Of a stretch of DNA of 64,000 bases, positions 8,531 through 31,928 are shown piece after piece. This DNA comes from Favolaschia claudopus (lineage: Eukaryota > Basidiomycota > Agaricomycetes > Agaricales > Mycenaceae). A model generated the notes under the pieces. That model was not told the origin of the DNA. It searched no databases and saw nothing but the letters and a program-made list of their open reading frames with translations. The stretch covers positions 1 to 64,000 of the forward strand of contig JAWWNJ010000013.1 of the NCBI GenBank assembly GCA_037176885.1, in the 5' to 3' direction. The translations under genes and the position numbers were made by a program. The stretch's first letter is position 1, and each line of letters starts with the position of its first letter.

Positions 8531-8579
8531 GTCTGGGCTAAACTAGAACGAGCGGCTGGGTAAACTAAGGGCCAATTAA

Positions 8580-11467: not shown

Positions 11468-11470
11468 GGA

Positions 11471-12847
11471 TGAAACGCTTGCACGCGGTCTAGTACAGCA
11501 AGTACTAGTTAGTTGTGGATTAACCCTGAAGGCCTATCTAGCTTTCAACCGCTAGCGAACCAACAAACCCAATCCTAACTACTTTCCCCCTTGTAATGGT
11601 ACTATAACTACGCCGAGTACAGCTCGTTTGATCACTTGTTTAAGATGATCGAAGGGAGCCTAAGATATAAACCTCTAACTAGTGCTTAAATACGATTGAG
11701 TGCCAGATAGAATCAAGTCCTCTCTTGACTAAAAGCCAAACGAGTGCTCAAGTCCAATATTTAGCTGATACAACGCAGCTAGGCCGAGTCCAATTCCAAT
11801 TCCAAGTCCAACAAAAGCTGATACCACACAGCTAACACAAAGTTCACACAATATCCAAGTCCAATGCCGCTGATACCACACAGACGGCCTTAAAGTCCAA
11901 ATTCACACTAAGAGTGGGCGCGAGTAGATTGAGAAACTTGTACAAAACGCTAAACAGAGCTCCTGGTATAGAGTTGATATAGGATGTCAAGCCCTAGATC
12001 TCTGCCTTTATTCGGGACTTTAGTCAGTTAAAACCGACACGCCCTAGCTAGGTCAGGAATCCAGTACTGAACACCTTCTACCACTGGCCTTATATACTGT
12101 ACATTCTAGCTTACTATTTACTGATTACTGTGCGACTGTCCATGGTCTATTTAATACATTGTCCAATAGGCATCCAGATAATTTATGATCCTTTCCTTCA
12201 TCCCTGGTTTCCGATCGTTTCACAACCACGATCAAATACGTCCATTCTCCAAGAGGTTCCTTAGTTATGGGTTCCTTGCTTAAGCCTTTGCCTGGCTTTG
12301 TGCAGAAACAGAAAGCTGAGTATCCAACGGTCATTTAGATACCCATACTTCCTATGTTCAGGCCAAGGACGGGATCTTGAACACTATCTGGAGTCCGGCT
12401 TGTGTTCCCCGTGATAGGTTTCGTGATCCCTTGATGCGTCTAAGTGACAATGACTGTTCCGTAAATGCCTCGGAGTGATGCCTTAGCCAGCCGTCCTGAT
12501 CATGGTGTTTCGGCTGATCAGTTGGTTAGCCAGGCAGCCCGCTCGCCTAGCTAGAGTATGTAACAGGTGGGACGGCCATTTGTTAAGTCCCTTTGGTGGT
12601 ATTCAGACAACTCGTGGACCCAAGAGGCTTTATACTCTTAGCGGAGCCCAAATACCTTTACTTGAGGTACGTCGCTCGGTCTGGTGATTTCCTTACGATA
12701 CGTCCAGGTATTGCCTTGACTTGGCCGTGTCTTGGTTAGCAATCCAGGACTGATCCTAACCCTCTTGAGCCTAATAGGTAGGTACTTAGCTAGCAAAACG
12801 CGCAAATTCCTGCACATTCCACTACTAGCCTAATAGCCTGCTTATCA
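11471..12847 (-). repeat. 3' LTR of the giant element
   Basis: This 1,377-bp LTR matches 29,131-30,506. On the element strand it starts TGATAAGC and ends GCGTTTCA. A strong TATA box (TATATAAG on the minus strand) lies at 12,089-12,096. About 150 bp near 11,751-11,905 hold three imperfect repeats built on AAGTCCAA and GCTGATACCACACAGC, possibly regulatory. Confidence 0.95.
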
Positions 12848-12859
12848 TCTCCCCCATTC
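12848..12859 (-). other. Polypurine tract of the giant element
   Basis: On the element strand, GAATGGGGGAGA directly precedes the first TG of the 3' LTR. This is where plus-strand DNA synthesis would be primed, and it shows that the 11,471-12,847 repeat is the true 3' LTR and the cargo is internal to the element. Confidence 0.8.
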
Positions 12860-13068
12860 TTTGCTCTTGACCGTCCCCGGTCAACTCTACTTTCCTATCT
12901 AGACCAGGCTAAAGCTTGTCTTTAAGCCCCACCACTCAAGATCTACTCAAACTACTTAACCAGCCTTGTCCCGGCTTAGCTAGCGCTCGTCATGATTTGG
13001 CCAGGATTCTAAGTCCTGAATCCGACTTAAGCGTTTTTGCCTCCGGCCAGCCAGTTACATAATTTACG

Positions 13069-13275
13069 TCATCTCTTTAATTGATCCATCAATCCTCGAC
13101 TGATTCTTTGTTTCCGCGGGAGCAACTGATCCAAAGGTTCGTCCCCTGTCTGGGATACGTTCCTTTGCTCAATACCTCCCTGTTGATACCCAACAAGCCT
13201 CATTTTCCTCTTTTTATTATCCGGTAAGAGCTCTTTTCTTGAAAACTTTCCCTGAATCTGAACTTTATCAGCCAT
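13069..13275 (-). CDS. Small basic ORF near the 3' LTR (68 aa)
   Basis: This short sense-strand open frame lies between the cargo and the polypurine tract. The product would be basic (many Lys, Arg and Gln), with no signal peptide or membrane segment, so it is not an envelope protein. It may be chance; the surrounding 12,860-13,400 otherwise shows no gene. Confidence 0.2.
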   Translation of the reverse strand: MADKVQIQGKFSRKELLPDNKKRKMRLVGYQQGGIEQRNVSQTGDEPLDQLLPRKQRISRGLMDQLKR

Positions 13276-13400
13276 TCTCGATTCGGTAAGTTCTCATTAG
13301 AGCCTCTATTGATGGAATCGCCCACTTATAGCGCTTCTTTTCAATAGAGTCTCAAACTCTATCCCAGTGCTTCCAAATTTCCAAGTCCTTCTACAGAAGA

Positions 13401-13427
13401 AGCTGCGTCCGCAGCTATCTTAAATAG
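13401..13427 (+). promoter_or_regulatory. Candidate promoter of cargo gene A
   Basis: A 16-bp palindrome (AGCTGCG-TC-CGCAGCT, 13,401-13,416) is followed at once by a TATA-like TTAAATAG (13,420-13,427), 50 nt before the ATG at 13,478. Similar TATA-like tracts lie about 55-70 nt upstream of genes C (TATAAA at 17,115), D (about 17,910) and E (19,681), which supports the cargo genes having their own plus-strand promoters. Confidence 0.4.
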
Positions 13428-13477
13428 AGGGACTTAGGAAAATTTTCTTCATTCCTTTCTTCCATCTTCCACCCACA

Positions 13478-15753
13478 ATGTCTGCTCGTCGCGCCGGCAA
13501 AGCTACTCCCCGCCCAACGACTCCCGAAATCGACGCCTCCCTTATCTACTGGGCCGCCTTTAACCACCCTTGCACTCGCCCGCTCAACAAAATCCTCCTG
13601 GCCGCTTCCGAACCCATCGAGAAGGAGGTCGCCTACGTCGCCTTTGGTCAGGCTCTCCCCGCAATCGAGCACGCGTTCGACGAGCAGCTTTGGGAAACTC
13701 AACCGGAGGAGTGCCACGCCTGGAATGGCATGATGGCTAACCTCCTCGAGTTCCTGGACGTCGTCCCGAATTTCTGGGCTTCCGTTGTGCAGTCTCCTCC
13801 TGAGGATCCCGGCGAGGTACGCCTCCCTTTTCCTTTTCTTATTTTCATTCTCTAATCCTCCTCTAGTATCCTGATCTTCCTGAAAACTTCAAGATCCCTT
13901 TCGCCGCCGCGCCGGATCTCGACTTCACTCCGTACGACTGGTCGATCCCTCCTTTCTATTCGCTTGTCAAGCAGGAGGTCGTCAAGACTTCGCCGTACGC
14001 CAAACTCGAGATCCCACCGTACGAGCCGCCCGTTCCCCATCAAGCGTCGGTCTCTCTTCAAGGAGCCCTCGTCCACCGACGCGAAGGGTTCCAAGAAGCC
14101 GGATGCTCAATCCGCGTCTGCGTCGTCGTCCCCGGTGAGGCCGCGTCCCATGTTCATGGTGAAGACCGAGGTTCAGCAAGTTCGCGGTCCTCCTGGCCGT
14201 CGCGTCTTCGATGGGGTTGAAGTCCCCAACACTCGTTCGTCGTAAGTCCGTTTCTCAATCTCCCAACTTTCCTTTAACTAACGTTTCCTCTCTTTAGTTC
14301 TGCCCAGTCTGGCAACAATCGCAAACGCAAGTTCGGGGAAAGCGGGGAGGTTGAGATGTTTAAGTCAAAGGACCAAGAGTCCGTTCAGGTAAGTCTCCCT
14401 TTAGTCTAGACTGCCTGCCCTTTGTACTTGGCTAACTCTTTTGTCTCTTAGGCTGACAGCGACGGTGAGGACGAGGTTGTTCCACCGCTCCCGTCGTGGT
14501 CGTCGACGGCCGCCAGAACTTCGTCATTCCCCGTCGCGCCAAGCTCGGATCCATCCACTACCCCCAACGCTAAGACGACTATGCCGACTCAAACCGAGAT
14601 TCAGGCTTTCGCCAAGCAGGTTGTCGACGTCTTTCAACACCGTCTTCTGAACTCGTCGGTTACAGGCACAGGTAAGTCCGCTTTTTACTGACTTAGCTTT
14701 TACTTGTTACTGACTAGAGTCCAGAGGACTTCAACCCGCTGCCCCCGTTCAACATCGTCACTCCTCTTAACCACCCGTTCCTTTACGGTGTGCGCTTCAA
14801 GGGCAAGACCCCGCCGCGGTTTTACAATTATCTTCCGCCCGGGACGTTGACTAGGGTGTCCACGAAGCCTGAACTCGCTCCTCCGCCACCGCCTTTCGAG
14901 CACCTTCCCAAGTTCGATCCTGCGCCGATCATGGAGATGGAGTTCGGTAAAGCTAAGATCGTAAGTCCTGTTTAGCTTAAACGATCCTCTCTTTAACTAA
15001 CCACTCTTTCGTTCTAGCCTGGCTGGATCTGTATCCAGTGCCTGGCGCTTAACCAGACTTGCATCCCAGCGGCCTTTGGTGCGAAGTGCAGCGCTTGCCA
15101 CAAGAAGGGGTTCTCGTGTGAGTTTGAGAAGTGCGACGAGGAGTTGGTGGAGTTTTAACCACCAACTTGGCCCTCGTTTCACTAAGTTTTCAAACTGTAA
15201 GTTCTTCCCTTTCTTTATTTGGTTTTAGCTAACGCTTGTTTCGTTTAGACACCGACCATCTTGGTGAAGTCTTGCTTTCCTCGCTATCACCACTATGTCG
15301 ATACCGCCAAGATTGCTCGCGCCGCCGCCAAGGACTTCGCCTCGACCTTCCGCCACTACCACGCGCACGCCGTCGACATCATCTCGGTCGTTGGCCTCGA
15401 CAAATTCCTGTCGCGCTTCTCCGCCGTCGATGTCAGCCCGGCCGACCTCCGCGCCCACTTTGAACATCTCGTCAAGCAGTTCAATGCGGCGTCGACTCCC
15501 AACTTGAAGGCGATCCACCCAGCGCCTAGGCCGTCGGAGGAAGAGCTCGCCATCAAGGTTGACCGCGATGCACTTGCCGCTGCCGTTGCTGCTGAGGGCG
15601 ACGATGGGCAACCGGTAAGTCCCTCCTTTTTCCTTCCTCTATCCACTCTTGCTGACCATCTCCCCCATTCTTTTACTCTAGGCTACCTTGTCGACGATCG
15701 ACGCGGAACCCAGCGGGACTGAGATGGCGGTGGATACGGTGGAGTCGGGATAA
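13478..15753 (+). CDS. Cargo gene A: large Zn2Cys6-like protein (frame-damaged copy)
   Basis: Eight exons are inferred from clear GT...AG introns with CTAAC branch sites: 13478-13816, 13867-14241, 14298-14388, 14452-14671, 14718-14960, 15018-15196, 15249-15614, 15682-15753. The expected product is about 625 aa. The N-terminal 113 residues form a globular-looking domain; a basic, low-complexity linker follows. The exon at 15,018 encodes the cluster C-x2-C-x6-C-x8-C-x2-C-x6-C, which matches the fungal Zn(II)2Cys6 spacing. The C-terminal 200 residues are helical. This copy has apparent single-base indels: near 14,035, one or two in exon 4, an extra A near 15,159 creating a stop, and an extra C near 15,281. 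The left copy lacks the last two. As written it would not make the full protein. Function is unknown; DNA binding is inferred only from the cysteine spacing. Confidence 0.6.
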
Positions 15754-16418
15754 GCTCATGGACTTTTGCCCGCTCGTCGTTCCGTTTGCGCGCGCTTCTT
15801 ACGCGCCGTTTTTCGTTTTTGTTTTTATAATGCACAGCATCTACTATGTACTTGGACTAGGCCTCCATAGTTAGATTATCGGTAACCCTAGAACTAAAAA
15901 ATGTAACGTCTATAGGATACCCTCTCTGCTTAGAGGGTATCTATAAAAGCTTTTGTATACTGGTCTTCCTTTGTGTGAACAAGTCCTCTTGGACTTTATT
16001 ACTATTTAGCAGGAAGTCCCTTAATACCACTTTCTTAGTCTTTTTAGAACGTCAACTACTTGAGGGCCGGTCCCAATTTTTACTTGGAAGTCCTTATAAG
16101 TTGGCCATTCCGGTTTACCCAGAATTCGTCTTGTCTGATAACGGTTGAATTTAGCTAGAGGCTTGGCTATCCTGTGAACAGGCCTGGCTAAGTCCTCTTT
16201 ATTTTAGCTAAGGATTTCATTCAATAGTTAAGAGTCAAAGCCGTTCCTTTCTGCACTATGAACCACTAGGCACTTGTCCACCCTTCGTCTAAGTGATGTC
16301 ATTTTGATTGACTTCTCGATTTAGTAAAATCAGACTGTCAATCCTAGCCGAAGTGATCGAGTTCCTAGTTTGGATGACCTTCACGTCAGCCTGGCTCATA
16401 GGGGTCCTAAGCTTAACT
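15754..16418. other. Cargo A-B intergenic region
   Basis: No gene is visible. It holds a perfect hairpin (10-bp stem, 6-nt loop) at 15,916-15,941, also present in the left arm. It could be an RNA structure in a leader or 3' end. Confidence 0.4.
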
Positions 16419-17065
16419 ATGGCGGTCAATCCGCATCCAACTACCTTGAAGCCCTTGGGGGCTTATCTTTCGCTGGAGGAGGAGTTCACTTACTACTTTC
16501 TCGAGGATAAGAAGGTAGGCTCCCTCCGTTTTTGCCGTGTAGACATTACTTAGCTAGCGCATTCCGTTTAGCCTGGGGCCGGAAGCTTATGCCAGTCTTG
16601 CAATGTCTTCGGGCTGACTTGCAAATTCAAGGCCTGGGTAGAGGCTGCGAACGCTGTGAACTCTACCACCAGTCAGACTGCACTTATGCCCAGTGGCCTG
16701 CTTTCCTTGACTTCCGCAAGTCTGAATTATGGGAGAAGACGGGTTCGTCTTATCCCTTTTTATCGCCCTTAGCTAAGTTCTGATTTGTTTGTCTAGAGCT
16801 TCGCTATGGCGGAGACTACTTCCCAGAGTCCCACCTTGAGGCTTACTTCGAGCCTTTGTTTAAACGGAACGTGGCCGCTTACGAACGGAGGCTCGAGATA
16901 GCTCTTCTTAAGGTTAGGCAAGCGTCACCAGCGGAAGCTATGGAAGTGTATAGGGCGCACGAACGGGCTCACGGGGGCGGGACTTTCGGAGTCGCAGCTT
17001 GGCTGCGTTCAGACCCTGGCTTAACCATCCCAGTTATACGCCCGCGCCATACTTTCGAGCGTTAA
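16419..17065 (+). pseudogene. Cargo gene B, right copy (Zn2Cys6-like, 1-nt deletion)
   Basis: Three exons: 16419-16514, 16572-16742, 16797-17065. The cluster exon has lost one G near 16,635 (GGG versus GGGG in the left copy), which shifts the frame between the third and fourth cysteines. The intact left copy encodes 178 aa. Exon 1 carries SLEEEFTYYFLED and exon 3 a charged helical domain. The cluster exon begins directly after a phase-0 intron, as in genes A, C and D. Function is unknown. Confidence 0.6.
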
Positions 17066-17180
17066 GTTTATTGGGCCTTTATCTTAGCCAGACCTCCTGT
17101 TAGGGCCCGATTTGTATAAAGTCCAGTTTAGCTAGTCGATCTCGATATACCACTTCTTGTCTTCCACTCTCATCTTCGCT

Positions 17181-17768
17181 ATGCCTTTCAACTCCCTGGA
17201 GGAGGAATACGCCTTTATTTATCTGGAGGATCACCCCGTAGGTTTCTCCTTGTCCCGTCGTAAATAACGGCTTATCCCTTTCCTAGTCTCTTAACTCGTG
17301 TACTCAGTGCGCAGACCGCGGTCAAGACTGCGTATTCTCCTTCTGGGGCAGGGCTTGCACCGCTTGCGAGGAGAGGCTTTGCAACTATTGCAGCTTTCGT
17401 TGGTTCTATCGCTGGCAGATGTTCCGCATTTCTCCTGAGTTCACTTCGCTCCGTAAGCTTCTCGCTTAATTAACGGCTAAGTCAATTAACCAAGACGCTT
17501 GACAGGTCCCCGCTTTGGCCGGGTGATGTTCCCCTACGCTTTCCTTCACCTTCACATACAGTCGATCATGGAGACTATTTGGGAGGAGACTTATATGGCC
17601 CGCTGCGACCAAGTCAAGCGTCGTATTGACGCAGCTAAGTCTACTGCCGAGATTGCCCACCTCCGTACCTATTTTGACCGCCTTGAGTTTGGCGCAATTG
17701 CCTACCGATGGCTAAGCCACAGGCACTGTGTCCTACGTCTCCAAGAGATTTGCCGAGGGGAAGCTTAA
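17181..17768 (+). CDS. Cargo gene C: 161-aa Zn2Cys6-like protein
   Basis: Three exons: 17181-17237, 17287-17452, 17506-17768, all in frame. Residues 1-19 contain the SLEEEYAFIYLED motif shared with gene B. The second exon encodes C-x2-C-x6-C-x8-C-x2-C-x7-C with one extra cysteine inside the last spacer. The last 90 residues are helical and basic. A TATAAA box lies 61 nt upstream. The gene is intact in both arms. It is probably a small nuclear or nucleic-acid-binding protein, judged only by the cluster; no linker or dimerisation coiled coil typical of Gal4 proteins is evident, and the family is not one I know. Confidence 0.65.
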
Positions 17769-17981
17769 TTAATTGGCCCTTAGTTTACCCAGCCGCTCGT
17801 TCTAGTTTAGCCCAGACCCTCCTGTATCTTATCCGGTAGTTCGGTTATAGATTCAAGGTGATCGAATTAAACTTGAGACAGTCTGGAGGGGTTGACTCGT
17901 CAGCGATCCACCTTTATTTAGGTGGACTCTGCCCTTTTGCGTCTCCAACTAATTCTTCTTCCCTTCTTCTAATCTTTCTGT

Positions 17982-19086
17982 ATGGCCCCAACTGCCGATT
18001 CTACTCTACTCGACATCGCCGCGCAGGTCGTTGGCTTAAATGAACCTGGCCCAGCTACAGTGGTGGATTTCTTGTTGATGCTCCAGGAGCGCCGTGTAAG
18101 TCTTAGCTTCGTTAATCTAGAAGTCCAAGCCCTTAGCTAACTCCCCACTTTTCTAGCCTAAGCGTCCCTGCGGCAATTGCGTCAACGCAGGTATCCTCTG
18201 CACTCCCACTCGCGCTGGGACTGGTTGCCGCGAGTGCACCCTTCAACTCTACTCCACTTGCGAGTTTATGGACGTTAATCGTTTTGTCGAGGAGCACGAG
18301 AAAGGTTTAGCCACTTTTATGCGTAGCCATAGTACGTCTTCCTCTTTTTCCTTTATCTGACGTTGGATTAACCTCCGTTTTGTTTAACTAGAGCGCAAGC
18401 CCAATCCAGATGGTCTAGCCAAGTGGCGCCGTTGGTCGTCGCTTATGATTTACGCTGGCCAGATCTTTCCGGCTCACGCTAACCTCGACTTGGTCGCTAC
18501 TCATACGGCTTATTTCCACATCTTGGGTCGTCTTCCTCTCGACTCGCTCTCCGTTATCCTGTCGGTCATCGAGACTTCCCTTCCTGGCCGAATTCCCATC
18601 AGCACTATTTTGCGTACTTTGGTTTCTCGTAAGCGCGCCGCCCTGGAGGCGGCTGGTCCAGATATTCCTTGGATCGCACCCCTTCCTATGGGACCGACGG
18701 ACTCTCCTCACCAAGCTAGGATTTTCCCTTTAACCAACACTCGCGTTAATCCTGACCCCGTCGCTGGCCCATCTATCCAGGGCGTTATGCCCGATGGTTC
18801 GAGTGCAGCCTTTAACTGGTCCACCCTCGCTTCACTCATCAACGACCAGTACAAAGACGACATCCCCGTCCGGTCGCCTCGTTCCATCCTTAACGGTCCT
18901 GACCCTGACTTAGCCGAGGGCTCCGTGTCTATCTTTGTCGACACTAGCCTTAGTGCTGTCGGAGGTTCTTCCGTCCGCGAGCAGCTAACTAAAGAGTCCA
19001 CCAGTGAGAAGGATCTCATCTCTTCGGTGCTTGACTGCGTTGATACCGCCCTTATCTTTGGGGAGGACGCCGCCAGCGACTTTTAG
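17982..19086 (+). CDS. Cargo gene D: 327-aa Zn2Cys6-like protein
   Basis: Three exons: 17982-18095, 18157-18331, 18392-19086, giving an open frame of 327 codons plus stop. Exon 1 encodes 38 residues. Exon 2 opens with a basic PKRP stretch and then C-x2-C-x6-C-x8-C-x2-C-x7-C. Exon 3 encodes a mostly helical domain of about 230 residues with an acidic C-terminus. A basic residue group directly before the first cysteine is common in Gal4-type clusters. The right copy is intact and the left copy has a frameshift at the start codon. Function is unknown. The 5.4-kb LTR element of the left arm inserted in the C-D gap. Confidence 0.68.
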
Positions 19087-19755: not shown

Positions 19756-21207
19756 ATGTCCGCCGAAACTGCTTCTGAGATTATTCCCCCGGAAATCGCC
19801 AACCTCTGGAAGGTTGTAGAGGAGAACATCACGCTCACGATGTCCTGCAATTTCCCCGCCCATCTCCCACACCGAACGTTGCAACTCTTCGAGCAGACAG
19901 CGGAGCATATGGTGCGTCTTGACTAGATTAACCAGGCTTTTTAGCTAACAGGTTTATCTGTCTAAGGCCTCCTTATTTCCTTATCCCAAAGTCGTTGCAC
20001 CCATTCTCGCTATTTACGACACCTTCTTTCGCTATCAGAACAAGTTCCGCCAATTTTGGGCTACTCAGGACAAGAAAGCTCCCATCCCTCCCTCTATCGA
20101 AGCGGTCTTTGCCTATATTGAAGATCTCCAGAAGGTTCGTAACCGTTTGCGCGCCAACAAGGCTGCCGCCGAGCAGGAGGCGCGTGAGAGGGCCCGTCAG
20201 GAGAAGGAGGAGGCGCTTAAAGAGGCTAACCAGGGTACGCCTAAGAAGGTGCGTTTAGCTAGTTCCTTTTCTATTCAGCCTATCTAAGCCGTCCTCCTTA
20301 TTCTCTAGTCTCGCAAGAAGAAGAAGTCCGCCCCTGATATCCATGATACCGAGGACGAGGTAGAGATTATCACGGAGGCTCTCCCCGAGGAGGACGTCCC
20401 TATGGACGACGCATCCGTTGTAGGCTGTCCTTTATTCCGTTTAACCTTTCCCTCATTAACCGTTTCATTCTTATAGGACGCCTCCACCGAACCCATCGAT
20501 GAAGAGGCTTTTATGGCAGAAATCGACGCTATTGAGAACGCTAGCAAGGTCAAAGCCAAGACTCCAGTTAAAGCCCTGGTACGTTCGCTAAATCACGACG
20601 TGTTCCCAATCGTTTAACTATCCTTCGTCTTAGCCTAAAATCTCCAAGTCTAAATCGACTCCTCGCCCTGAGACAGTACGCATTCCTTATACCCGTGTTG
20701 CTCGCCTCAACCGTAGTGCTCGTGTTTACCACAAAGCTATGAAGGTTATCAGCAAGACCAATCCCACGGAGGCTGCCCAAGTCGCTAACGAGGTACCCCA
20801 ATCTAGCCGCAAGCGCCGTCGCGCTAATTCCTTCATCGAGGCTAACCCCGTTCCCCAGGGTCAGTCTCTATTTCCCATATTTTCGCCTTAGCTAAGTGTT
20901 CTATCGGCTCCCAGCGACTGATCAAGGCACGGCTAAGGCCAAGGACCTTATTGCGCTCGCCCAGAAGCTCGTTATTCACAAGCCAGCCGTTATTTCCGAT
21001 AGAGCTCTTATCCGTGCTGAATACGAGAACCGCTCCGAGATCGGTTTCATTATCCATCGCTTGGAATACTTTGGCATGATTGCCGAGCGACTTTGTAATG
21101 AACAGGAGCGACTGGTGGCCCTTCTGGCGGAGCGCGACCTTAAGGCCAGCGATACTCCTCCCACAAGGTATGTTTCCTTTACTTCGACGCAGGACTCCCT
21201 ATTCTAA
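19756..21207 (+). CDS. Cargo gene E: ~400-aa charged, helix-rich protein
   Basis: Six exons: 19756-19911, 19952-20248, 20309-20419, 20477-20578, 20634-20859, 20897-21207. The frame is continuous for 400 residues; a further intron beginning at about 21,167 would instead end the protein slightly earlier. There is no cysteine cluster. Residues about 95-150 look like a charged coiled coil rich in Glu, Lys and Arg, followed by an acidic segment and a Lys/Arg-rich stretch resembling a nuclear signal, then a C-terminal helical domain of about 100 residues. I do not recognise the family. The end converges on pol with only 156 bp between the two stop codons. Confidence 0.62.
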
Positions 21208-21363
21208 CCTTTTCTTTAGCTAGACTTGTTCGCCCTTATGCGCATCTCAGCTCAGTTCCAGTCAAACTCCATACCGTCTTTACTCTACCCACTCCACTGT
21301 CCTTACTAGAATAACCAGTTTGCCGTTGCGTTTTATTATCCGATTGAGAGACCGTTACGATGT

Positions 21364-24300
21364 TTAGACGTTAATTCGCTTGGATCTCCTCGGATTATCC
21401 GTGGTCCAGTTATTGTCCATTTCATCTAAGTCCTCATCGTCTTCGCTAGGATCTGGTTCATCCTCAGACAAGTCAGCGTCATCCATCTGGTCCCAGTCAG
21501 GGTTTAGATGGACCTTGTCGAATTGTAGGTCTTTTCCCTTATATTCGACAACATTATCCTCGGACTCAGCCAACTCATCCAGTTCGGCCGAAGTCATGTC
21601 GATTAGTTTCTCAATGTTGCTGGGTAAGTCTAACTTTTCCCTAGCTAAGAACGGCACGACTCTGAACTTCGCCAGTTTCCCTCTAAACATTGCCCCATTC
21701 ATTTCGCAGCAAAGGTAGGCCCCATTCCTTGTCCGTCTTACTACCACCATAGGTCCGAGAAACCGCGGGTCCATTTTGGAGTTAAGCGATTTTTCAACCG
21801 TGGTATTTCTGACTAAGACTAGATCACCGGGATCAAAGTTGTAATCTTTAATCGTTTTATAGTGGATTCGAGCGTATCTTTCTGCGGCAATGACTTTCTC
21901 CCGGGTAACTCTATCCCTCATTTCTTCTATATGTTGGATATGCTTGGCTAAGGCCTTTGCCCTTAAACCAACTAGCTCTTCGGTGCTGATTATCTTCCCT
22001 GGATATTCAACTAACCAAGTCGCTTCGTCCAAGTCCAGAGGAATTGTAGGATGAGCACCTGTGACTGCAAAATAGGGAGAGCATCCCAGGCCGCGCCTAG
22101 TAGTGATTCTGTCTGCCCATAGGACTTGAGATAAAAACCAAAACCATTTCCTAGCGTCACCTCCAGTAGCTTTATATAGCGACTGTCTTATATCCCAATG
22201 AACCCTTTCAACTGGTCCATTCGCTTGAGAATTATAAGGAGATATTCTAATCCCAGCAATCCCATATTTGGAGTTAAGCCAAGCTAAGGCAGCCAGGAAT
22301 TGTCCAGCATTGTCGGACACTATCCAGGCCGGGCAACCCCATCGGCAGATGATCTCTTCAAGCAGGAAGCGCCCTATCGCTTCTGCCGTATCTGAGCGTA
22401 AGGCCCTGGCTTCGAGATACCTAGTTAAAGAATCTCTAGCCGCAATTAAGAGTCTATGCCCGTTTGAAGGTACGCCCATTACCATTACGTCTACGTGAAT
22501 CTTTTGGAAGATACTAGGCGTGTATGTGGCTACTGGGGGTATCCTCATTAATTCCCTTTGTCTAACCTGGCACATTTTGCAGGATTTAATATACCAATCC
22601 AGATCTCGTTCAATTTCTGGCCACCAGAATCGAAGTTCAATCAAGGATTTCGAAGAGAAAATGCCTTTGTGCCCTAGACTGTCGTGGGATGCCTTCATTA
22701 TATACATCCGGTGTTCTTTATTCACAACTAGTTTATGGCCAGAGTCCTCTCCTCGCCGATACAACTGTCCCTTGTCCAGAAAGAATTTCCTCGAGTACGT
22801 TATAAAGCGCCTATATTGTTTATTGTTAAACTCTTCAGGTCGCTTTAGAGGGTCCTTAAACCACTCCTCTAGTAACTCTAGTTTTCTATCCTGGTTCTTG
22901 GCAGACTCAGTTCTATGTTCCTCCGGATAATTTTCCCGCTTGGAAGGATCATATTTAAAATGTGAGTCGGGGAGCAGTTTTTCAGGTTCTTGGGTTTGGT
23001 CCATTAGATAGGCAGGGAATTTCAACCCTTCATCCTCATAGGCCTCCCTAACCCGTTTCCCTATCACTAACTCTCCCTTATACTCTTCCACGCAGTTCAA
23101 GCTAAACTGCTGCACAGCTTTGTCGAAAGAAGGGATTTCGCCCAGGTCGGGATATATTTCTTGGATATACCCTCCCCTTGTGTCAATCTCTCTTTTGAAC
23201 TCTTCAAAGTCGTACGGTTGAGGAATGTCATATTCCCAGTCTTTATGATCTTCTGGAGGGGGATTGTCTTCGTACCCAAGCCCTGGATTAGGGTATTCTG
23301 GGTCTCCAGGTACTTTCCTCCGTCTAGATAAACCATCTGGTGAAAATGTCAGACCTCTGACATGCTTAAGCTCGAAATGGAACATAAGAATTTGCTCTAT
23401 CCAGCGGTTTATTGTGGCGTTTGGTCCCATCCCTGGATTGTTCAACATCCCCTTTATATAAAGAGCGTCTGTTTCTACCACCAGTTTACGGCAGCCAAGT
23501 AACCAATATTGCATATGGAGTAGGGCTCTTAGTAAACCATACAACTCCCGTTTTGGCTGAGAGAATCTAGCTTCTCTATCGTTCAAGGGAATTGAATCGA
23601 ACTTGGCGTAATACTTCTTTTTGGGATCGTCCGGATCACACTGATAGCATTCTATCCCGACTGCCATCCAAGAAGTATCAACTGCCAGGACAATGCTGCT
23701 TTCCCATTCATAGTTCAAAGGTTTTAGAGCTTCGCAATGCCTAACCGCGTACTTAATTAAGTCCATCGATTTCTGCTCTAGCTCCCCCCAATTAAACAAG
23801 ATGTCCGCCCTAAGCAGCATAGTTAAGGGTTTAGACATGACTGAGTAAGCTCTGATGAACATCCGCATGGTCCCAACAACTCCCAGAAATTGTCTAACTT
23901 CCGAGACTGTTTCAAGCGGTGGCCACCTTTCAATGACGCCTATCCTGTCCTCCGATGGTCTTCTCCCTTCGAATGAGCATATATGCCCAACGACTGGAAA
24001 TTCATCTTTGCAAAGGATGGCTTTAGTCCCCGAAAAGGTACCCCCACAATATTTGATCCTCTGTATAACTCTGTTTAAGTTATGCAGATGTTCCCAGACG
24101 AAACGCCTTATTCCAGGATTCCCTTTAATCGTCTCGTATACTCCTTTTAAATTTAGATAGCGAGTTCCCGGTCCTCGAATAGGAACATCGTCTATGTAGG
24201 GAATAGCGACGTGAGGTATTTCATCCCTTAGAATAAAGGTTACATCGTCGTGGAAAATGGGTACTGAGTTAGTCCAGCCTTGTGGTAACTTAACTAGTCT

Positions 24301-25458
24301 GTGAGCTCCGAATGGAGTCTGGAACGTAGTGAAGTCCCTCGAGCTTTCAGCTAAATCTCTATGGTCATACCCAGAGTATAAATCTAACACAGCACCGCAG
24401 GCTCTGCCCGCGAAGTGGTTAGCTAACTCATCCGTTGCCGGTGGAATCCCAGAATGGGCAATAGTGACCGCGTTGAGAGGTTCTAAGGCATGGACTAGTC
24501 GAATAGACTTCCCATCCTTCTTGATCACCCCAAAGAATTTTGAGCGGTAAGACGAATTAGACGGTTCGTAAACTCCCGCGTCTATTTTCTTCTTGATTAC
24601 CCGACAGAATTCTTCTAACTGGCCCCTGGGTATGGGTATGCTCTTTTCTACCCAGACCTTGTGTTCCACTACTGGCATTTCGACTGGCGGGAAGAAATCA
24701 TGCCTAAAGCACCCTCTTTCAGAGTCATCCCAGGCGAAGGCAGCTTCTTGAACCATCATTAAATAATGTAGCAGCTTTCTCTCTTCTGGCCAAAGGAAGT
24801 CCCCTTCGTGGATGCTATCTATGATCTCTTTTCGTTCAGCCGTGTATTTCCCAGATGGAGTGAAATCCGGCGGATTAGGTATTAATTCCGGCATTCCCTC
24901 CAGGGGGTTGCCTAGAATTTGCCTCTTGATCCTATATTGCTCTGGTAGGTCCCCGTATATTGGCCTAGTCTTTAGAGCAACCGGTTTATACTTCTTTCCA
25001 GCAAATACTTGGACAAGTTTTTCCTTCTTGACCCACGTCCATTGCGAACGGGTCAAATCCTCTTTTGGAGGAGATATGAAGTCTATCTTCTCACAGCAGA
25101 GGCACCTATGTGTTGGTTCAAACTCGTGGGCTGGCTTCTTGTCTACCTCCTCTACCATAGGTCTGATTCCAAATTCCTTAGGCAGGTGTTCTTCGAACTG
25201 GAGTATCTGATATCCAGACCCATCCGTTTTTCTAACCGGTCTACTAGTCTCTTGTTTAATCCACTGATTAAGTAAAACTGAGGCTTCTATATCCTCGTTT
25301 AACTCGTCACAGCTTTTAGAGGCTAATAAATACGCAAGGGTTATGTCTGATTCCTTAAACGAGTTGCCGTTGCGGGGTGGAAGGTAGCCTTGTATCTCCA
25401 TTTCCCCTACCGAGTTAAACCCCACTTGTATTGCTACCTCTTCTCCTCGATTAATCAA
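21364..25458 (-). CDS. Pol polyprotein: reverse transcriptase, RNase H, integrase
   Basis: This is an uninterrupted frame of 1,364 codons. The reverse transcriptase active site YIDD is near residue 420. RNase H follows (VLAVDTSW near 590). The integrase zinc domain (H...H and C-x2-C) is near 920-965. The integrase core carries its first Asp in IHVDVMV (about 990), the second in IVSDNAGQF (about 1050) and the Glu in GPVERVHWD (about 1080). The order RT-RNaseH-IN is that of Ty3/gypsy. The C-terminus is acidic and then basic; I see no clear chromodomain. The frame overlaps the protease end by a few bases in another frame and lacks a good ATG at its start, so frameshifting or re-initiation is likely. 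Confidence 0.95.
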   Translation of the reverse strand: MINRGEEVAIQVGFNSVGEMEIQGYLPPRNGNSFKESDITLAYLLASKSCDELNEDIEASVLLNQWIKQETSRPVRKTDGSGYQILQFEEHLPKEFGIRPMVEEVDKKPAHEFEPTHRCLCCEKIDFISPPKEDLTRSQWTWVKKEKLVQVFAGKKYKPVALKTRPIYGDLPEQYRIKRQILGNPLEGMPELIPNPPDFTPSGKYTAERKEIIDSIHEGDFLWPEERKLLHYLMMVQEAAFAWDDSERGCFRHDFFPPVEMPVVEHKVWVEKSIPIPRGQLEEFCRVIKKKIDAGVYEPSNSSYRSKFFGVIKKDGKSIRLVHALEPLNAVTIAHSGIPPATDELANHFAGRACGAVLDLYSGYDHRDLAESSRDFTTFQTPFGAHRLVKLPQGWTNSVPIFHDDVTFILRDEIPHVAIPYIDDVPIRGPGTRYLNLKGVYETIKGNPGIRRFVWEHLHNLNRVIQRIKYCGGTFSGTKAILCKDEFPVVGHICSFEGRRPSEDRIGVIERWPPLETVSEVRQFLGVVGTMRMFIRAYSVMSKPLTMLLRADILFNWGELEQKSMDLIKYAVRHCEALKPLNYEWESSIVLAVDTSWMAVGIECYQCDPDDPKKKYYAKFDSIPLNDREARFSQPKRELYGLLRALLHMQYWLLGCRKLVVETDALYIKGMLNNPGMGPNATINRWIEQILMFHFELKHVRGLTFSPDGLSRRRKVPGDPEYPNPGLGYEDNPPPEDHKDWEYDIPQPYDFEEFKREIDTRGGYIQEIYPDLGEIPSFDKAVQQFSLNCVEEYKGELVIGKRVREAYEDEGLKFPAYLMDQTQEPEKLLPDSHFKYDPSKRENYPEEHRTESAKNQDRKLELLEEWFKDPLKRPEEFNNKQYRRFITYSRKFFLDKGQLYRRGEDSGHKLVVNKEHRMYIMKASHDSLGHKGIFSSKSLIELRFWWPEIERDLDWYIKSCKMCQVRQRELMRIPPVATYTPSIFQKIHVDVMVMGVPSNGHRLLIAARDSLTRYLEARALRSDTAEAIGRFLLEEIICRWGCPAWIVSDNAGQFLAALAWLNSKYGIAGIRISPYNSQANGPVERVHWDIRQSLYKATGGDARKWFWFLSQVLWADRITTRRGLGCSPYFAVTGAHPTIPLDLDEATWLVEYPGKIISTEELVGLRAKALAKHIQHIEEMRDRVTREKVIAAERYARIHYKTIKDYNFDPGDLVLVRNTTVEKSLNSKMDPRFLGPMVVVRRTRNGAYLCCEMNGAMFRGKLAKFRVVPFLAREKLDLPSNIEKLIDMTSAELDELAESEDNVVEYKGKDLQFDKVHLNPDWDQMDDADLSEDEPDPSEDDEDLDEMDNNWTTDNPRRSKRINV

Positions 25459-26927
25459 GTCATCGAAGGGGCTTGAAAACCCTGGGTTGTACTGCCCGGG
25501 TTATCTTGCGCAACCTTACCACTGCTTCCACCGCCTGACTCCAGGACAGTTTCAACCGTGGGAGGTTTGTACGTTCCTCGCGCCCATGTGACCATTGTAG
25601 CGCGTTTAAACGTAATCGGGTCCGTAATAGTGATGGTGCACTCTCCATCTGGTTCATTCTGGGACGAAGCTCTAGTTAAGACTTCGAAGGGTCTCCCCAG
25701 CAAAATCTCATAGGCTGGGTTCTCCATTATATGCACCTGAAGGCGAGCCACAATATCCCCAAAACGGAACAACACGTTCTTGGCTAAACCAACCGACTTC
25801 TTATAAGTCAGATTAGCTGCTTGCATGGTAATTACAACACCTGGGTCCCAAGTTAGTCCTAACCGTTCAGCCGTAGCTTTAGCCATGGACACAATCTGAG
25901 AACCACTGTCAACTACCGCTTCTACCCGTTCTTTGCCTTCAATTACAGGGAACATTACCCTAATAGGTTCCGAATCGTTAGCTACATAGTTTTCCGCCAA
26001 GGTTTGGTAGATTTGTTTTGGAGCTTCATCCGCCCCAAATGAGTTGTAATATTCAACTACTGGGTCCGTGATGATTAAAGCCCCTTCAGGTATTCCTTCC
26101 TCATTCGGTGGAGCTATAATTAAGCTTTCAAACACTTCAACCGTGGCTACATCCACAGCATCGTAATCCAGCTTTAATCCCTCCTCTCCGTTTAAGTCAG
26201 AGAATAAGTCTACCTCTTGAACAAGAAAGTCTTTGGCTATCTTCGGCTTAACATAAGGTACTCTGACCTTAGTGGCCTTTATCTTCACTTCTTTAGACAC
26301 AGCGGGGCTTACCGCTAGAAGTTCTTTCTGGGTCATGGTAATAGGTAGATTCCCACACCTTTCGGCGAGGTCTTTAGCTATTCCTGGGTCTACAGTTCGA
26401 CTTTCTAAACGATATGCCTTATCTACTGGCCTGGGTATATTAACTGTAACGGTTGGAGGAAGCGGAGGTGAAGAATCTTTTGTCTGGCTAGACTCTGCCT
26501 CTTTTATTAAATCGCTCATTTCCTCGGGTAGTGATTCTTGAGAAGTCTGGCTAGGTTGCGAGGCAGGGTTCGATTGTCTTTCAACCCATTCTCCAACTAA
26601 AGTCTTAACTATCTCGAAAATCCCTTGGCTTCTACCTGACCAAGTCCAGTTTTTAGCATCACTGACATGGTTAAGCGTTTTGAATGGTTCCTCTAACCCA
26701 ACAACTTTTGGCAGGAAGGGTCTTAAGGTTTCTAGGAAAACTCTCAACTCCTTCTGATTAGTTGGCTCTGGCCAATCTTTTAGCCGAGCTATAAACATCC
26801 CCATATCTTGCTCCAATTCATCTATGAACTTTACTCGCCAATTTTTATTCTTGTCTGATTCGCTAGCCTTTTCTCGGTTCTCCGGAGGCCTGGCTGGTGG
26901 TCTAACGGGTATCTCCACCGCCTCCAT
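25455..26927 (-). CDS. Retroelement aspartic protease protein (490 aa)
   Basis: This is a separate frame between gag and pol with its own ATG, 12 nt past the gag stop. The catalytic motif VVDSGSQ lies near residue 345 in a retropepsin-like fold, followed by a second beta-rich half. The N-terminal 330 residues are variable, rich in Pro, Ser and Glu, with no recognised domain. A protease encoded apart from both gag and pol is less usual and suggests re-initiation at the gag stop. The frame is intact. Confidence 0.88.
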   Translation of the reverse strand: MEAVEIPVRPPARPPENREKASESDKNKNWRVKFIDELEQDMGMFIARLKDWPEPTNQKELRVFLETLRPFLPKVVGLEEPFKTLNHVSDAKNWTWSGRSQGIFEIVKTLVGEWVERQSNPASQPSQTSQESLPEEMSDLIKEAESSQTKDSSPPLPPTVTVNIPRPVDKAYRLESRTVDPGIAKDLAERCGNLPITMTQKELLAVSPAVSKEVKIKATKVRVPYVKPKIAKDFLVQEVDLFSDLNGEEGLKLDYDAVDVATVEVFESLIIAPPNEEGIPEGALIITDPVVEYYNSFGADEAPKQIYQTLAENYVANDSEPIRVMFPVIEGKERVEAVVDSGSQIVSMAKATAERLGLTWDPGVVITMQAANLTYKKSVGLAKNVLFRFGDIVARLQVHIMENPAYEILLGRPFEVLTRASSQNEPDGECTITITDPITFKRATMVTWARGTYKPPTVETVLESGGGSSGKVAQDNPGSTTQGFQAPSMT

Positions 26928-26938
26928 CCTTGAACGCT

Positions 26939-28720
26939 TTAGAAATTTGGATTGGCGGGTTGCTCAGTAGTAGTCCCATTTCGCGTTACCGCAAACTGAT
27001 CTACCTTCTGAGTTCCCCTAAATGCGTCAACTAAGTTGCACATCTGAGCTATGTCAAGTAATCCATTTGGCTGAACCGGATTTTGAATAAACTGAGGAGC
27101 AGCCGGCTGCATTCCAACAGTAAACTGTGGAACGCTAAATTGGTTAACCGGCTGGGGAGGATTTAACCCTGCTAATCCAAGTCCAGGTTGCCCGGAGTTC
27201 GAATTTCTTTGCAAATTCTGAACTTGAACTTTTAGCGAGAGTAATTCGTCGTCCCTAGAGTCATACATGTGTTCAATGTCATCGACTCGGTTAACCATAT
27301 TCTGCATCAAGGGCAGAGTTCCTAACGGAGACCCTTTCTTTTTGCCCTGTGAATGCCAATATTCGTCAACTCGAATCTTTCGACAATTACCTTCAGGATT
27401 CCTTGGAATATATTGTCCATTACCCAAGCGCATTTGTCCATTATCAAAACCTATGTATCCCATTTCTATATGCTCCTTTTTATAAGGGCACTTATTCATG
27501 AGATGGTCCCCTAGTTCACAATAATAGCAAAGGCCGTTGTTTGACGCATTGTTATTATTATTCCCTTGATAATGATTGTGACCGGAGTTCTGATAATTCC
27601 TCGGCCCGTTATCCTGTCTACCCGAATTCCCAGGGTTGAAGTTTGAAGTTCCCCCTTCATTCGCTGATTGCGTAAACGCTGTCTTGGCTAGACTTTCCAG
27701 CTTTTTATCCTGGACAGTAAACCCATCTTTAATCGCAGCAGTTAAGGCTAGGATACTCTCATTTATCTCAGAACTTTCTTTAGAGACTTCGGTGGCTAGA
27801 TTCAGACTAACAGCTTTTGAATCCCTCGAACGAGAAGAACCTCTCTTTCTGGGTTTAATAGGCTGTGCATCCCATATCTCAGCTAACTCTGTCGCTATTT
27901 CTATCACTGAGGTAAGAGGGATTTTGTCTCCTCTACGCTTAACTCCAGGATTATCATGGGTTAATTGGGTAGGCCCAGTGCCCGGGTTAACCGCCGTGGC
28001 TCCCGTAGCTGGTCCAATTACTGTCCCATTAGTTGCAAACTTCTTATGAATTATCATAGCGTTCACATTTTGCTCGAAGTCCTCATCTAAGCATCCCAAG
28101 AACTTAGCTACTAGTTGCCCATTGTCAATTGAGGCGGGCGGTTTAAGCAGTTTCTCGGCTTCGTTGAGGAAAGCTATGCTAAACCTTCTGACTTTCCCTA
28201 AGTCCGTGACGGGAATGTCTTCAAATTCAGAGCAAAGCTTCTCCAACTTACGCAGAGACCCAACTTCCGCATCCTCTAATTCTGGGAACAAGTTCCTAAT
28301 TTCTTTGACCCATTGATCATAGGTCCCGGCTGCATGCGAAGGCATTCGCTCCCATTGTTCAATGATATCTTGGTCATGGATGTAGTCCAAGACCTTTTCC
28401 TTCTTTTCCTTATCCGAGGTTAGCCCTCCTGTTAGGATAACAGTAGCCATATTCTTAAAGAACCGTCTAAGTGAATTAGCCGATTTCCCATCGAATGAAG
28501 GCCCATTTTTGTCCCAGGGTGCGGGCATGCGGATTCCAGTTTGGGAAGTCATTCTAGCTGGTCGCTGTTGGGCAACTGGTTGAATAACTGTTGGTGTTGG
28601 GTTGTTGACCGTAGACGGATCAACGGTAGGTACAAAAGTAGGCGTCTGGATAGGCGCCGTAGACGAGGTAGAGGCTTGGTCCGCCAGTTTTTCGTCTGTC
28701 GTGGGTCTAGGTATAGCCAA
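26939..28720 (-). CDS. Gag protein with CCHC zinc knuckle
   Basis: The product has a Pro/Thr/Ser-rich N-terminus, a helical capsid-like region (about residues 60-230), a Lys/Arg-rich part, a Gln/Asn-rich stretch, and one zinc knuckle C-x2-C-x4-H-x4-C near residue 400. The end at 28,720 is only a non-ATG codon. The frame stays open upstream to 29,059, where a TAG precedes it, and that 113-codon extension also looks coding. The first in-frame ATG is at 28,552. The true start may be non-AUG or be supplied by splicing from the leader. Confidence 0.9.
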   Translation of the reverse strand: MAIPRPTTDEKLADQASTSSTAPIQTPTFVPTVDPSTVNNPTPTVIQPVAQQRPARMTSQTGIRMPAPWDKNGPSFDGKSANSLRRFFKNMATVILTGGLTSDKEKKEKVLDYIHDQDIIEQWERMPSHAAGTYDQWVKEIRNLFPELEDAEVGSLRKLEKLCSEFEDIPVTDLGKVRRFSIAFLNEAEKLLKPPASIDNGQLVAKFLGCLDEDFEQNVNAMIIHKKFATNGTVIGPATGATAVNPGTGPTQLTHDNPGVKRRGDKIPLTSVIEIATELAEIWDAQPIKPRKRGSSRSRDSKAVSLNLATEVSKESSEINESILALTAAIKDGFTVQDKKLESLAKTAFTQSANEGGTSNFNPGNSGRQDNGPRNYQNSGHNHYQGNNNNNASNNGLCYYCELGDHLMNKCPYKKEHIEMGYIGFDNGQMRLGNGQYIPRNPEGNCRKIRVDEYWHSQGKKKGSPLGTLPLMQNMVNRVDDIEHMYDSRDDELLSLKVQVQNLQRNSNSGQPGLGLAGLNPPQPVNQFSVPQFTVGMQPAAPQFIQNPVQPNGLLDIAQMCNLVDAFRGTQKVDQFAVTRNGTTTEQPANPNF

Positions 28721-29110
28721 AGGGGAGTCCCTTAGACTAGAGGTGGAGGCAATAGGTGCGGTAGAGATAGAAGGGTTAACTAAGGTCCTTTCGCGTGAAG
28801 CTAGAGTCCTCGAGTTAGTCCTAGCTGCCTGCTCTTCCCTTGCCCGTTGCGCTGCCGATTTGTTTTTAGTAGTAGCGGTGGGTAATCCAACCGATACTCC
28901 TGCTAAAGCCGACCTTTGAGTAGATCGTGTAGACGGTCTATCCCAATAAGTTGACGGTTGTGTGCCTGAGGCTTGATAAACCTCTTCTTCCCCTTCCTCT
29001 CCTTGCGGATTGTTAGGTAGAATGGCGAATGGTTTGTTTAAGCTTTTCGGAGAACAAGTCTACCAAAACACAAAAACCGAAAGATAGCACAAAGATTTAA
29101 TCTTTAACCC
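28721..29110 (-). other. Leader and 5' extension of the gag frame
   Basis: The gag frame continues without stop from 28,720 to 29,059 with biased composition, but has no ATG. From 29,060 to 29,110 the leader shows no gene. Confidence 0.5.
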
Positions 29111-29128
29111 CCCTCGCGGTGGGCTCCA
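29111..29128 (-). other. tRNA primer-binding site
   Basis: Two bases after the 5' LTR, on the element strand, an 18-nt stretch begins TGGAGCCCACC. Its complement ends in CCA as a tRNA 3' end does. I cannot say which tRNA. Its place next to the 29,131-30,506 repeat identifies that repeat as the 5' LTR. Confidence 0.75.
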
Positions 29129-29130
29129 GA

Positions 29131-30506
29131 TGAAACGCTTGCACGCGGTCTAGTACAGCAAGTACTAGTTAGTTGTGGATTAACCCTGAAGGCCTATCTA
29201 GCTTTCAACCGCTAGCGAACCAACAAACCCAATCCTAACTACTTTCCCCCTTGTAATGGTACTATAACTACGCCGAGTACAGCTCGTTTGATCACTTGTT
29301 TAAGATGATCGAAGGGAGCCTAAGATATAAACCTCTAACTAGTGCTTAAATACGATTGAGTGCCAGATAGAATCAAGTCCTCTCTTGACTAAAAGCCAAA
29401 CGAGTGCTCAAGTCCAATATTTAGCTGATACAACGCAGCTAGGCCGAGTCCAATTCCAATTCCAAGTCCAACAAAAGCTGATACCACACAGCTAACACAA
29501 AGTTCACACAATATCCAAGTCCAATGCCGCTGATACCACACAGACGGCCTTAAAGTCCAAATTCACACTAAGAGTGGGCGCGAGTAGATTGAGAAACTTG
29601 TACAAAACGCTAAACAGAGCTCCTGGTATAGAGTTGATATAGGATGTCAAGCCCTAGATCTCTGCCTTTATTCGGGACTTTAGTCAGTTAAACCGACACG
29701 CCCTAGCTAGGTCAGGAATCCAGTACTGAACACCTTCTACCACTGGCCTTATATACTGTACATTCTAGCTTACTATTTACTGATTACTGTGCGACTGTCC
29801 ATGGTCTATTTAATACATTGTCCAATAGGCATCCAGATAATTTATGATCCTTTCCTTCATCCCTGGTTTCCGATCGTTTCACAACCACGATCAAATACGT
29901 CCATTCTCCAAGAGGTTCCTTAGTTATGGGTTCCTTGCTTAAGCCTTTGCCTGGCTTTGTGCAGAAACAGAAAGCTGAGTATCCAACGGTCATTTAGATA
30001 CCCATACTTCCTATGTTCAGGCCAAGGACGGGATCTTGAACACTATCTGGAGTCCGGCTTGTGTTCCCCGTGATAGGTTTCGTGATCCCTTGATGCGTCT
30101 AAGTGACAATGACTGTTCTGTAAATGCCTCGGAGTGATGCCTTAGCCAGCCGTCCTGATCATGGTGTTTCGGCTGATCAGTTGGTTAGCCAGGCAGCCCG
30201 CTCGCCTAGCTAGAGTATGTAACAGGTGGGACGGCCATTTGTTAAGTCCCTTTGGTGGTATTCAGACAACTCGTGGACCCAAGAGGCTTTATACTCTTAG
30301 CGGAGCCCAAATACCTTTACTTGAGGTACGTCGCTCGGTCTGGTGATTTCCTTACGATACGTCCAGGTATTGCCTTGACTTGGCCGTGTCTTGGTTAGCA
30401 ATCCAGGACTGATCCTAACCCTCTTGAGCCTAATAGGTAGGTACTTAGCTAGCAAAACGCGCAAATTCCTGCACATTCCACTACTAGCCTAATAGCCTGC
30501 TTATCA
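29131..30506 (-). repeat. 5' LTR of the giant element with promoter
   Basis: This 1,376-bp LTR matches 11,471-12,847 with two visible differences. The TATA box (TATATAAG, minus strand) is at 29,748-29,755 and should drive gag-pol transcription leftward. The same internal AAGTCCAA/GCTGATACC repeats occur near 29,411-29,565. Confidence 0.95.
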
Positions 30507-30890: not shown

Positions 30891-31068
30891 GAATGTATCT
30901 TGTAATGAAATAGGGTGTCTCGAGGTACATTTGAGGAGGAGGGACGCCAGAGATTGAGGTACTGTACTAATCCGATTGGTTGTTCACGTTATGTGTGACG
31001 CCGGCCTGTGAACTGAACAATTTTGAACAGGGTGACGGGTGACGGGGACTTTTTCGGCCCAAAAATGG

Positions 31069-31682: not shown

Positions 31683-31928
31683 AAAAATGGCCACAAAATC
31701 GCAAAAATCTCCGGCCGGCACTTGCCGAAACGTGCCGACCTTCCATATATGGCAATTTTGACGTGATTGCCGTGATGTGAACGACTTGTCCGGTGAACGA
31801 TTTGGGTGACGGGTGACACCCAGTGAACAACCGATCGGATTAGTACAGTAGTCCGATCGTTAGACAAAGAGATTTGCCAGCGGATCCTCGGCTATCAGCT
31901 GACTAAGCGCCCGATTTCCGAACCGTAA

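Follow-up and report, generated by a model that had tools for sequence, protein, structure and literature searches.

Are the intron-bearing genes that lie antisense inside a retrotransposon passengers, or do they belong to the element? This question is raised by the first 64,000 nucleotides of contig C13 (JAWWNJ010000013.1) of the basidiomycete Favolaschia claudopus, the stretch of DNA analysed here and called the window, which contains a Ty3-type long terminal repeat (LTR) element at positions 11471-30506. The gag-pro-pol genes of the element lie on the minus strand, and the 8.5 kb that separate pol (ending at 21364) from the 3' LTR (12847) hold five plus-strand genes, which we designate ORF1 to ORF5 (ORF, open reading frame) and collectively call the module. 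We compared the element with its copies within one genome, that of the host (assembly of 264.6 Mb in 460 contigs). An earlier prediction made for this DNA (the original prediction) regarded the five genes as cargo. The genes are indeed carried in the element, but the term undersells them, and we found that the module is an integral, selected part of the element.

The LTRs are direct repeats of each other on the minus strand, which is the sense strand of the element. The 5' LTR (29131-30506) is 1376 bp long and the 3' LTR (11471-12847) is 1377 bp long; they differ by one substitution and one indel, and have TG...CA termini. A primer-binding-site-like sequence, TGGAGCCCACCGCGAGGGG, is located 2 nucleotides inside the 5' LTR end (29110-29128, minus strand) and begins with TGG, which we take to be the complement of the tRNA CCA end. 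The polypurine tract GAATGGGGGAGA (12848-12859, minus strand) adjoins the 3' LTR. On the same strand, the gag frame (26939-29059) covers 706 amino acids from stop to stop, with the first ATG at codon 170; the protease frame (25455-26963), -1 relative to gag, matches PF13975 at 35.5 bits; and pol (21364-25500, 1378 amino acids), -1 relative to pro, encodes reverse transcriptase, RNase H, and integrase. In pol, PF17917, PF17919, and PF17921 exceeded the Pfam cut-off, with matches to RNase H and the integrase zinc-binding domain, and the reverse transcriptase domain (PF00078, RVT_1) fell under it. As the order of the Pfam matches is protease, reverse transcriptase, RNase H, and integrase, we assigned the element to the Ty3 type. 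The Ty3/Gypsy characters present are the LTR pair with TG...CA termini, primer-binding site, and polypurine tract, the order of the pol domains, and a 4-bp target-site duplication (in 8 of 11 copies, see below). The single element that the original prediction had delimited by its LTRs, primer-binding site, polypurine tract, and gag-pro-pol was thus borne out by the LTR comparison, the termini, and the Pfam order.

The gag frame is open for 169 codons ahead of its first ATG (29059 to about 28553, minus strand). In the window copy, gag, pro, and pol follow one another in successive -1 frames on the minus strand, and two slippery heptamers are found in the 0 frame: A AAT TTC at 26942-26948 (minus), directly ahead of the gag stop, and G GGT TTT at 25476-25482 (minus), within the pro/pol overlap. 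They are possible -1 frameshift sites in this copy. Frameshifting by -1 at paired sites occurs in some retroviruses.

All five module genes are on the plus strand. ORF1 (13478-15754; 8 exons) encodes 624 amino acids in copy C61, ORF2 (16419-17065; 3 exons) 178, ORF3 (17181-17768; 3 exons) 161, ORF4 (17982-19086; 3 exons) 327, and ORF5 (19756-21314; 7 exons) 411 amino acids. ORF5 has a lysine-rich middle and no cysteine (Cys) cluster, and about 50 bp separate its end from that of pol. ORF1 to ORF4 have in common a six-cysteine exon (Cys-cluster exon) between phase-0 and phase-1 introns, and these four genes are mutually related. Altogether the module contains 19 introns of 40-67 nucleotides each. 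The layout of five intron-bearing genes in 8.5 kb, as originally predicted, therefore stood, with 19 introns, but the window copy is partly broken: several indels frameshift its ORF1 (the hypervariable gene of the module, see below) and one deletion frameshifts its ORF2, whereas ORF3, ORF4, and ORF5 are intact. An earlier division of ORF1 into two genes (A and B) was abandoned on comparison with copies C61 and C105. In an alignment of the window copy with 14 others, from which the fragmentary copies C193, C222a, C222b, and C198c were excluded, the copies in which a start codon is followed by an uninterrupted frame up to the final stop numbered 11 for ORF1, 14 for ORF2, 13 for ORF3, 15 for ORF4, and 12 for ORF5, out of 15. 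ORF1 of copy C107b lacks exon 1, and ORF5 of copy C191 has an in-frame insertion and reads beyond the usual stop. We consider this anatomy of the element and the module to be highly probable.

A search of the genome with the module DNA gave 22 matches of 92-100% identity (21 of 43 candidates scored), and a search with the pol DNA gave 40 matches (36 of 594 candidates scored). Twenty-one of the pol matches span at least 4999 of the 5001 query bases, and ORF4 adjoins pol in all 21. The search with ORF4 (94 of 94 candidates scored) gave 84 matches, which we grouped into 32 loci; every locus is next to further sequence of this element, be it pol, LTR, or another part of the module, and the 11 loci beyond the 21 full-pol copies have partial pol, LTR, or module sequence beside them. 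Thus, among the candidates scored, neither a full-pol copy free of ORF4 nor ORF4 as a lone chromosomal gene was found, two outcomes that the original prediction had named as telling against it. Short, more diverged pol fragments on C52, C33, and C166 had no ORF4 match. The copy numbers are lower bounds, in which two haplotypes were possibly both counted, since contig C25 starts with C13 sequence.

Target duplications of 4 bp were found in 8 of the 11 copies whose flanks were read (ACGT, GCGC, GCGC, TCGT, CCGG, GCGT, ACGG, and ACGG); the window copy and two C198 copies have none. The coordinates and flanks of the C198 copies are consistent with neighbouring copies that share one LTR in tandem. 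The window copy is bordered on the left by an inverted, partial module copy, and its missing duplication is therefore ascribed to rearrangement among copies or to the assembly. All nine duplications found, eight in this family and one in the second family described below, have the form NCGN with a central CG, and integration seems to favour CG sites. These observations show that the LTRs, gag-pol, and the module were inserted in multiple copies as a single unit.

We then compared codons and splice sites between copies. Copies C61 and C105 differ by about 7% over the region. Their ORF2 to ORF5 have 57 silent and 10 replacement differences (omega 0.053, binomial P 1.7e-26); omega is 0.173 for ORF1 (0.120 with distance correction) and 0.044 for the last 311 codons of pol. 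In four other pairs with C61, omega was 0.10-0.18 for ORF2 to ORF5, 0.03-0.07 for ORF1, and 0.03-0.14 for pol; for ORF4 alone, it reached up to 0.65 in some recent pairs (9 changes). Constraint is weaker in young copies, as expected for copies of an element after insertion. The GT or GC and AG ends were kept in all 284 scored intron instances from 15 copies (a 285th was set aside owing to a gap). In the comparison of C61 with C105, none of the 76 splice dinucleotides has changed, versus 141 of 853 bases in the intron bodies. All five genes are under purifying selection, and the constraint on ORF2 to ORF5 is about equal to that on pol. Codon-level selection between copies, which the original prediction had proposed as a check, was therefore strong.

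A search of the genome with ORF3 gave at least 155 matches (150 of 219 candidates scored), and at least 58 of the matches listed are distant: over the Cys cluster, they are 32-47% identical to ORF3 (E 2.6e-5 to 2.6e-3). At all three loci opened (L053, L054, and L055), a pol end 40-48% identical to the window pol lies on the minus strand, together with four antisense Cys-cluster exons in the same order as in the first family. At L053, a further plus-strand gene is located between the Cys-cluster exons and pol. The only element of this second family that was followed to its ends, on C71 (about 507657-528250, 20.6 kb), has an LTR pair of 1.86 kb with 98.9% identity, a minus-strand gag-like frame, and a GCGG duplication. 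The TGGAGCCCACCGCGAGGGG motif is found inside both LTR ends of this element, near the terminus (L059/L060); the last two bases differ between the inner and the outer ends.

The part of the second family corresponding to ORF2' to ORF5' occurs at 34 or more places at 95-100% identity (34 of 156 candidates scored). As in ORF1 to ORF4, the Cys exon lies between phase-0 and phase-1 introns in ORF2', ORF3', and ORF4', the three genes modelled for this purpose. The numbers of silent and replacement differences in these three genes, in that order, were 31:17, 4:0, and 2:1 between L053 and L054; 26:19, 5:0, and 4:1 between L053 and L055; and 22:12, 5:0, and 2:2 between L054 and L055. Similarity to the genes of the second family exceeded that of 300 shuffles, with best z values of 9.7 for ORF2, 15.2 for ORF3, and 11.1 for ORF4. 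The best partner of ORF3 is ORF2' and that of ORF2 is ORF4'; because these partners are crossed, we do not claim one-to-one orthology between the families. These comparisons show a second, diverged family with the same layout. One result speaks against extending the correspondence to all five genes: ORF5 has no significant similarity to ORF5' (z -0.2 over 300 shuffles), the model of which is tentative as it contains an implausible 21-nucleotide intron, and the fifth gene is thus a positional counterpart only.

ORF1 is the most divergent gene of the module in both families. Between copies C105 and C115, identity is 72-90% in the 250-base windows at 12900-15649 and 90.5-99.6% in all others, including 90.5-95% in the stretch between ORF1 and ORF2 (15650-16400). 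In C119, pol is 97% identical at the DNA level and the exons of ORF3 and ORF4 are 93-99% identical at the protein level, whereas ORF1 has only 34% protein identity over residues 2-242 and 270-603. In the second family, the sequence downstream of the ORF1' stretch is 95-96% identical among L053, L054, and L055 for more than 5 kb. Within ORF1', the best ten protein-level matches of each pair have identities of about 29-43% (L053/L054), 46-58% (L053/L055), and 31-36% (L054/L055); among the best ten for L053/L055, identity is 53-77% in the last 230 bp. The initial 700 bp of L053 served as a further genome query (40 of 44 candidates scored), and the result was compared with the downstream matches. 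In 32 copies with a downstream match from the start of the query, the first 700 bp were matched at 97-100% in five and at 70% in two; the remaining 25 had no match listed for the 700 bp at the expected place, which may be due to divergence or, in some, to truncation. Accordingly, ORF1 occurs in numerous, strongly diverged allelic forms, and the backbone that carries them is far more uniform.

How this variability arose is less clear-cut. Relative to C115, ORF1 is a patchwork: copies C3b and C107a are 88-90% identical at 14150-14900, and C3a, C37, and C191 are 90-92% identical at 14900-15400. These segments show recombination inside ORF1. It is therefore conceivable that recombination alone, through breakpoints of template switching or gene conversion near ORF1, produced a variety that is not selected. 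Two further results point the same way and weigh against a special role of ORF1. The interval between ORF1 and ORF2 (15900-16400) likewise varies more than the remainder, at 88-96% in the same patchwork copies. In addition, C119, a member of a diverged subfamily, has diverged in parts other than ORF1, with 80% identity in the LTR and leader and 85% at the end of pol (21024-22006). However, ORF1 is the most divergent gene in both families rather than in one, and the divergence of C105 in its LTR part (96-98% identity) and in ORF2 to ORF5 (93-99.6% per 250-base window) is not comparable to that in ORF1. We consider it rather unlikely that recombination is the whole explanation. Co-variation of the LTR with ORF1 was also considered and dropped, as C119 is diverged in both and C105 mainly in ORF1.

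What, then, might the module do? The six cysteines are invariant in all ten module exons that we chose from both families, and all ten have the spacing C-x2-C-x6-C-x5-12-C-x2-C-x6-8-C, which we take to be the pattern of the fungal Zn(II)2Cys6 cluster. The commonest weak Pfam match of the single Cys exons was Zn_clus (PF00172; 6 of 10 exons, best E 0.0082). Several results count against identifying the exons with this domain. ORF2 was the sole full ORF to match Zn_clus, at 11.1 bits versus a cut-off of 21; full ORF1, ORF3, and ORF4 gave no Zn_clus match in Pfam at E <= 1 and none reached the PF00172 cut-off. In a profile search of the PDB, no E value was better than 0.17, and the weak matches included LEU3, LAC9, and CYP1/HAP1; sequence searches of the PDB gave nothing significant. 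The AlphaFold model of the Cys exon had a pLDDT (predicted local distance difference test) of 56 and found no match in a Foldseek search, and the model of ORF4 exon 3 had a pLDDT of 34; the confidence of both models was low. Because of the weak Pfam scores and the uninformative structure prediction, we call ORF1 to ORF4 zinc-cluster-like, not members of PF00172. None of ORF1 to ORF5 matched PF04195 (TRP28) in Pfam at E <= 1, and a scan of IMG/VR with pol gave no confirmed relative.

We propose the following scheme. Each module gene would have its own promoter; A/T-rich tracts lie upstream of the start codons of several of the genes, which is weak evidence of promoters. The genes would presumably be expressed as separate, spliced antisense mRNAs and then translated, and the unspliced sense genomic RNA would be packaged and reverse transcribed. 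The introns would never be lost because only the sense RNA is copied, in which the spliceosome is blind to antisense introns. The original prediction had explained the survival of the introns by their antisense placement, and the retention of all 19 introns fits this idea. ORF1 to ORF4 would be putative nuclear proteins, each with a degenerate zinc-cluster module, and their target would be the DNA or chromatin of the element, where they would most likely tune transcription or counter host silencing, and ORF1 may be the fast-diverging component that gives specificity. Antisense genes of some retroviruses and anti-silencing factors of plant DNA transposons are thought to play a comparable role. 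That the module regulates the element in the nucleus or relieves it from silencing, with specificity given by ORF1, is a serious candidate that we place a little short of probable. The statement as a whole, that this is a Ty3-type lineage with an integral five-gene antisense accessory module acting as proposed, seems to us fairly probable. A more specific version, in which ORF1 is an exchangeable specificity cassette in a self-contained antisense regulatory module, is doubtful. If it is true, elements that share pol and ORF2 to ORF5 would differ by ORF1 in the DNA, chromatin, or rival element that they recognise. Specificity switching is known in bacterial mobile systems, and the ORF1 cassette would be its retrotransposon counterpart.

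The main rival to nuclear regulation or relief from silencing is that the module serves copy-number control or superinfection exclusion, in which the Cys-cluster proteins of a resident element repress others and the ORF1 alleles define recognition. The sharp divergence of ORF1 between otherwise similar elements would agree with this, as would the patchwork inside ORF1, which is expected of a recognition determinant under exchange. However, ORF1 is still under purifying selection in pairwise comparisons (omega 0.03-0.17), and such control cannot be strict, as the element is multicopy and the LTRs of the window copy are nearly identical. We regard this rival as improbable. The one-off capture of a host segment with five genes by one element, later amplified as a useless passenger, would account for introns like those of chromosomal genes and for the antisense orientation, but we rejected it as very improbable because, in the protein searches, which did not cover ORF1 and ORF5, no relative of ORF4 was found outside element copies, ORF4 accompanies all 21 full pol copies, ORF2 to ORF5 are about as constrained as pol, and a second family with a pol end of only 40-48% identity has the same layout. 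Equally improbable is that the antisense transcripts act as RNA (as double-stranded RNA or in silencing control) with incidental frames; it has been suggested that single antisense genes so placed act through antisense RNA (PMC7264820, in the part available), but the codon constraint and the kept splice sites show that proteins are selected, which refutes an RNA role as the sole explanation, and such a role may be additional.

The inverted partial module copy to the left of the element is on the minus strand and in two parts: part of ORF4-ORF5 at 1-3113, cut by the contig start, and the continuation from the end of ORF1 to ORF3 at 8531-11470, which abuts the 3' LTR directly. A 5.4-kb LTR element with 376-bp LTRs interrupts this copy at about 3107-8530; as the two halves overlap on the module, this element seems to have made a 5-bp duplication, and its 611-amino-acid frame (window 1-11470) has no Pfam match. 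Close to their starts, contigs C13 and C25 share almost the same module and LTR sequence at matching coordinates, which represents either two haplotypes or a duplicated contig end. On the other side, the blocks 30960-31853 and 49196-50646, about 18-19 kb apart on the same strand, are 88-97% alike and lie on either side of gene-like sequence with kinase, FAD-binding, and 3HCDH matches. Two 1-kb stretches (52207-53195 and 63011-63999) are 72% alike and have long minus-strand frames without a Pfam match at E 0.001.

Antisense genes in LTR elements are known from plants. As far as the accessible part of a review goes, the aORF-3R elements, including maize Grande (gene23), rice RIRE2, and Phaseolus PvRetro13, likewise carry antisense genes in the interval from pol to the 3' LTR; these genes are present in the majority of the copies of a family and lack clear database relatives, and the Grande gene has its own promoter (PMC7264820). 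The present module differs in having five genes with 19 introns, of which four are related Cys-cluster genes and one of these is hypervariable; the word 'intron' is absent from the main text of that review. Plant Retand elements have, according to the available part of the paper describing them, a long region that separates pol from the 3' LTR and in which every cluster has antisense coding sequence, with a suggested DNA-binding regulatory role (PMC11963269). That region is 2.9-6.6 kb there versus 8.5 kb here, and the antisense genes there mostly carry the TRP28 domain (PF04195), which was not matched here; 'intron' is again absent from the main text. Among fungi, Boty/BcGypsy1 of Botrytis cinerea is an LTR element with an extra antisense gene, brtn (PMC7264820, PMC8365987); in the accessible parts of these sources, a single extra antisense gene is named, versus five here, a comparison made by description only. 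Captured extra ORFs common to several types of retroelements are described, in the part available, for the LTR retrotransposons of bdelloid rotifers (PMC5408684), in the main text of which 'intron' and 'opposite orientation' do not occur and 'antisense' occurs once, for small RNAs. The HBZ gene of human T-cell leukaemia virus 1 (HTLV-1) is, according to the available part of the Retand paper, a retroviral antisense gene for a nuclear protein (PMC11963269); it is a single gene, and we intend an analogy only, without claiming a relation to the ORF1 to ORF5 proteins. The main text of a paper on transposable elements of Laccaria bicolor (PMC3411680) contains no antisense, opposite or reverse orientation, additional ORF, or zinc. 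The literature searched, the coverage of which left out most subscription papers, contained no description of a module of several antisense genes with introns. The view of the original prediction that an antisense cluster looks new therefore has to be narrowed: plants and Boty already provide examples of one antisense gene placed in this way, and what is new, as far as the literature searched shows, is a conserved module of five genes that has 19 introns and includes a set of related Cys-cluster genes, one of them hypervariable.

Our finding means that, through antisense placement, an LTR retrotransposon can carry an intron-bearing gene cluster and keep it over many cycles of reverse transcription. 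With five genes, dozens of copies, and natural differences in ORF1 between elements that are otherwise alike, it makes the role of the antisense genes of Ty3 elements directly testable. It also suggests that genome annotation may mislabel the module genes as zinc-cluster proteins of the host.

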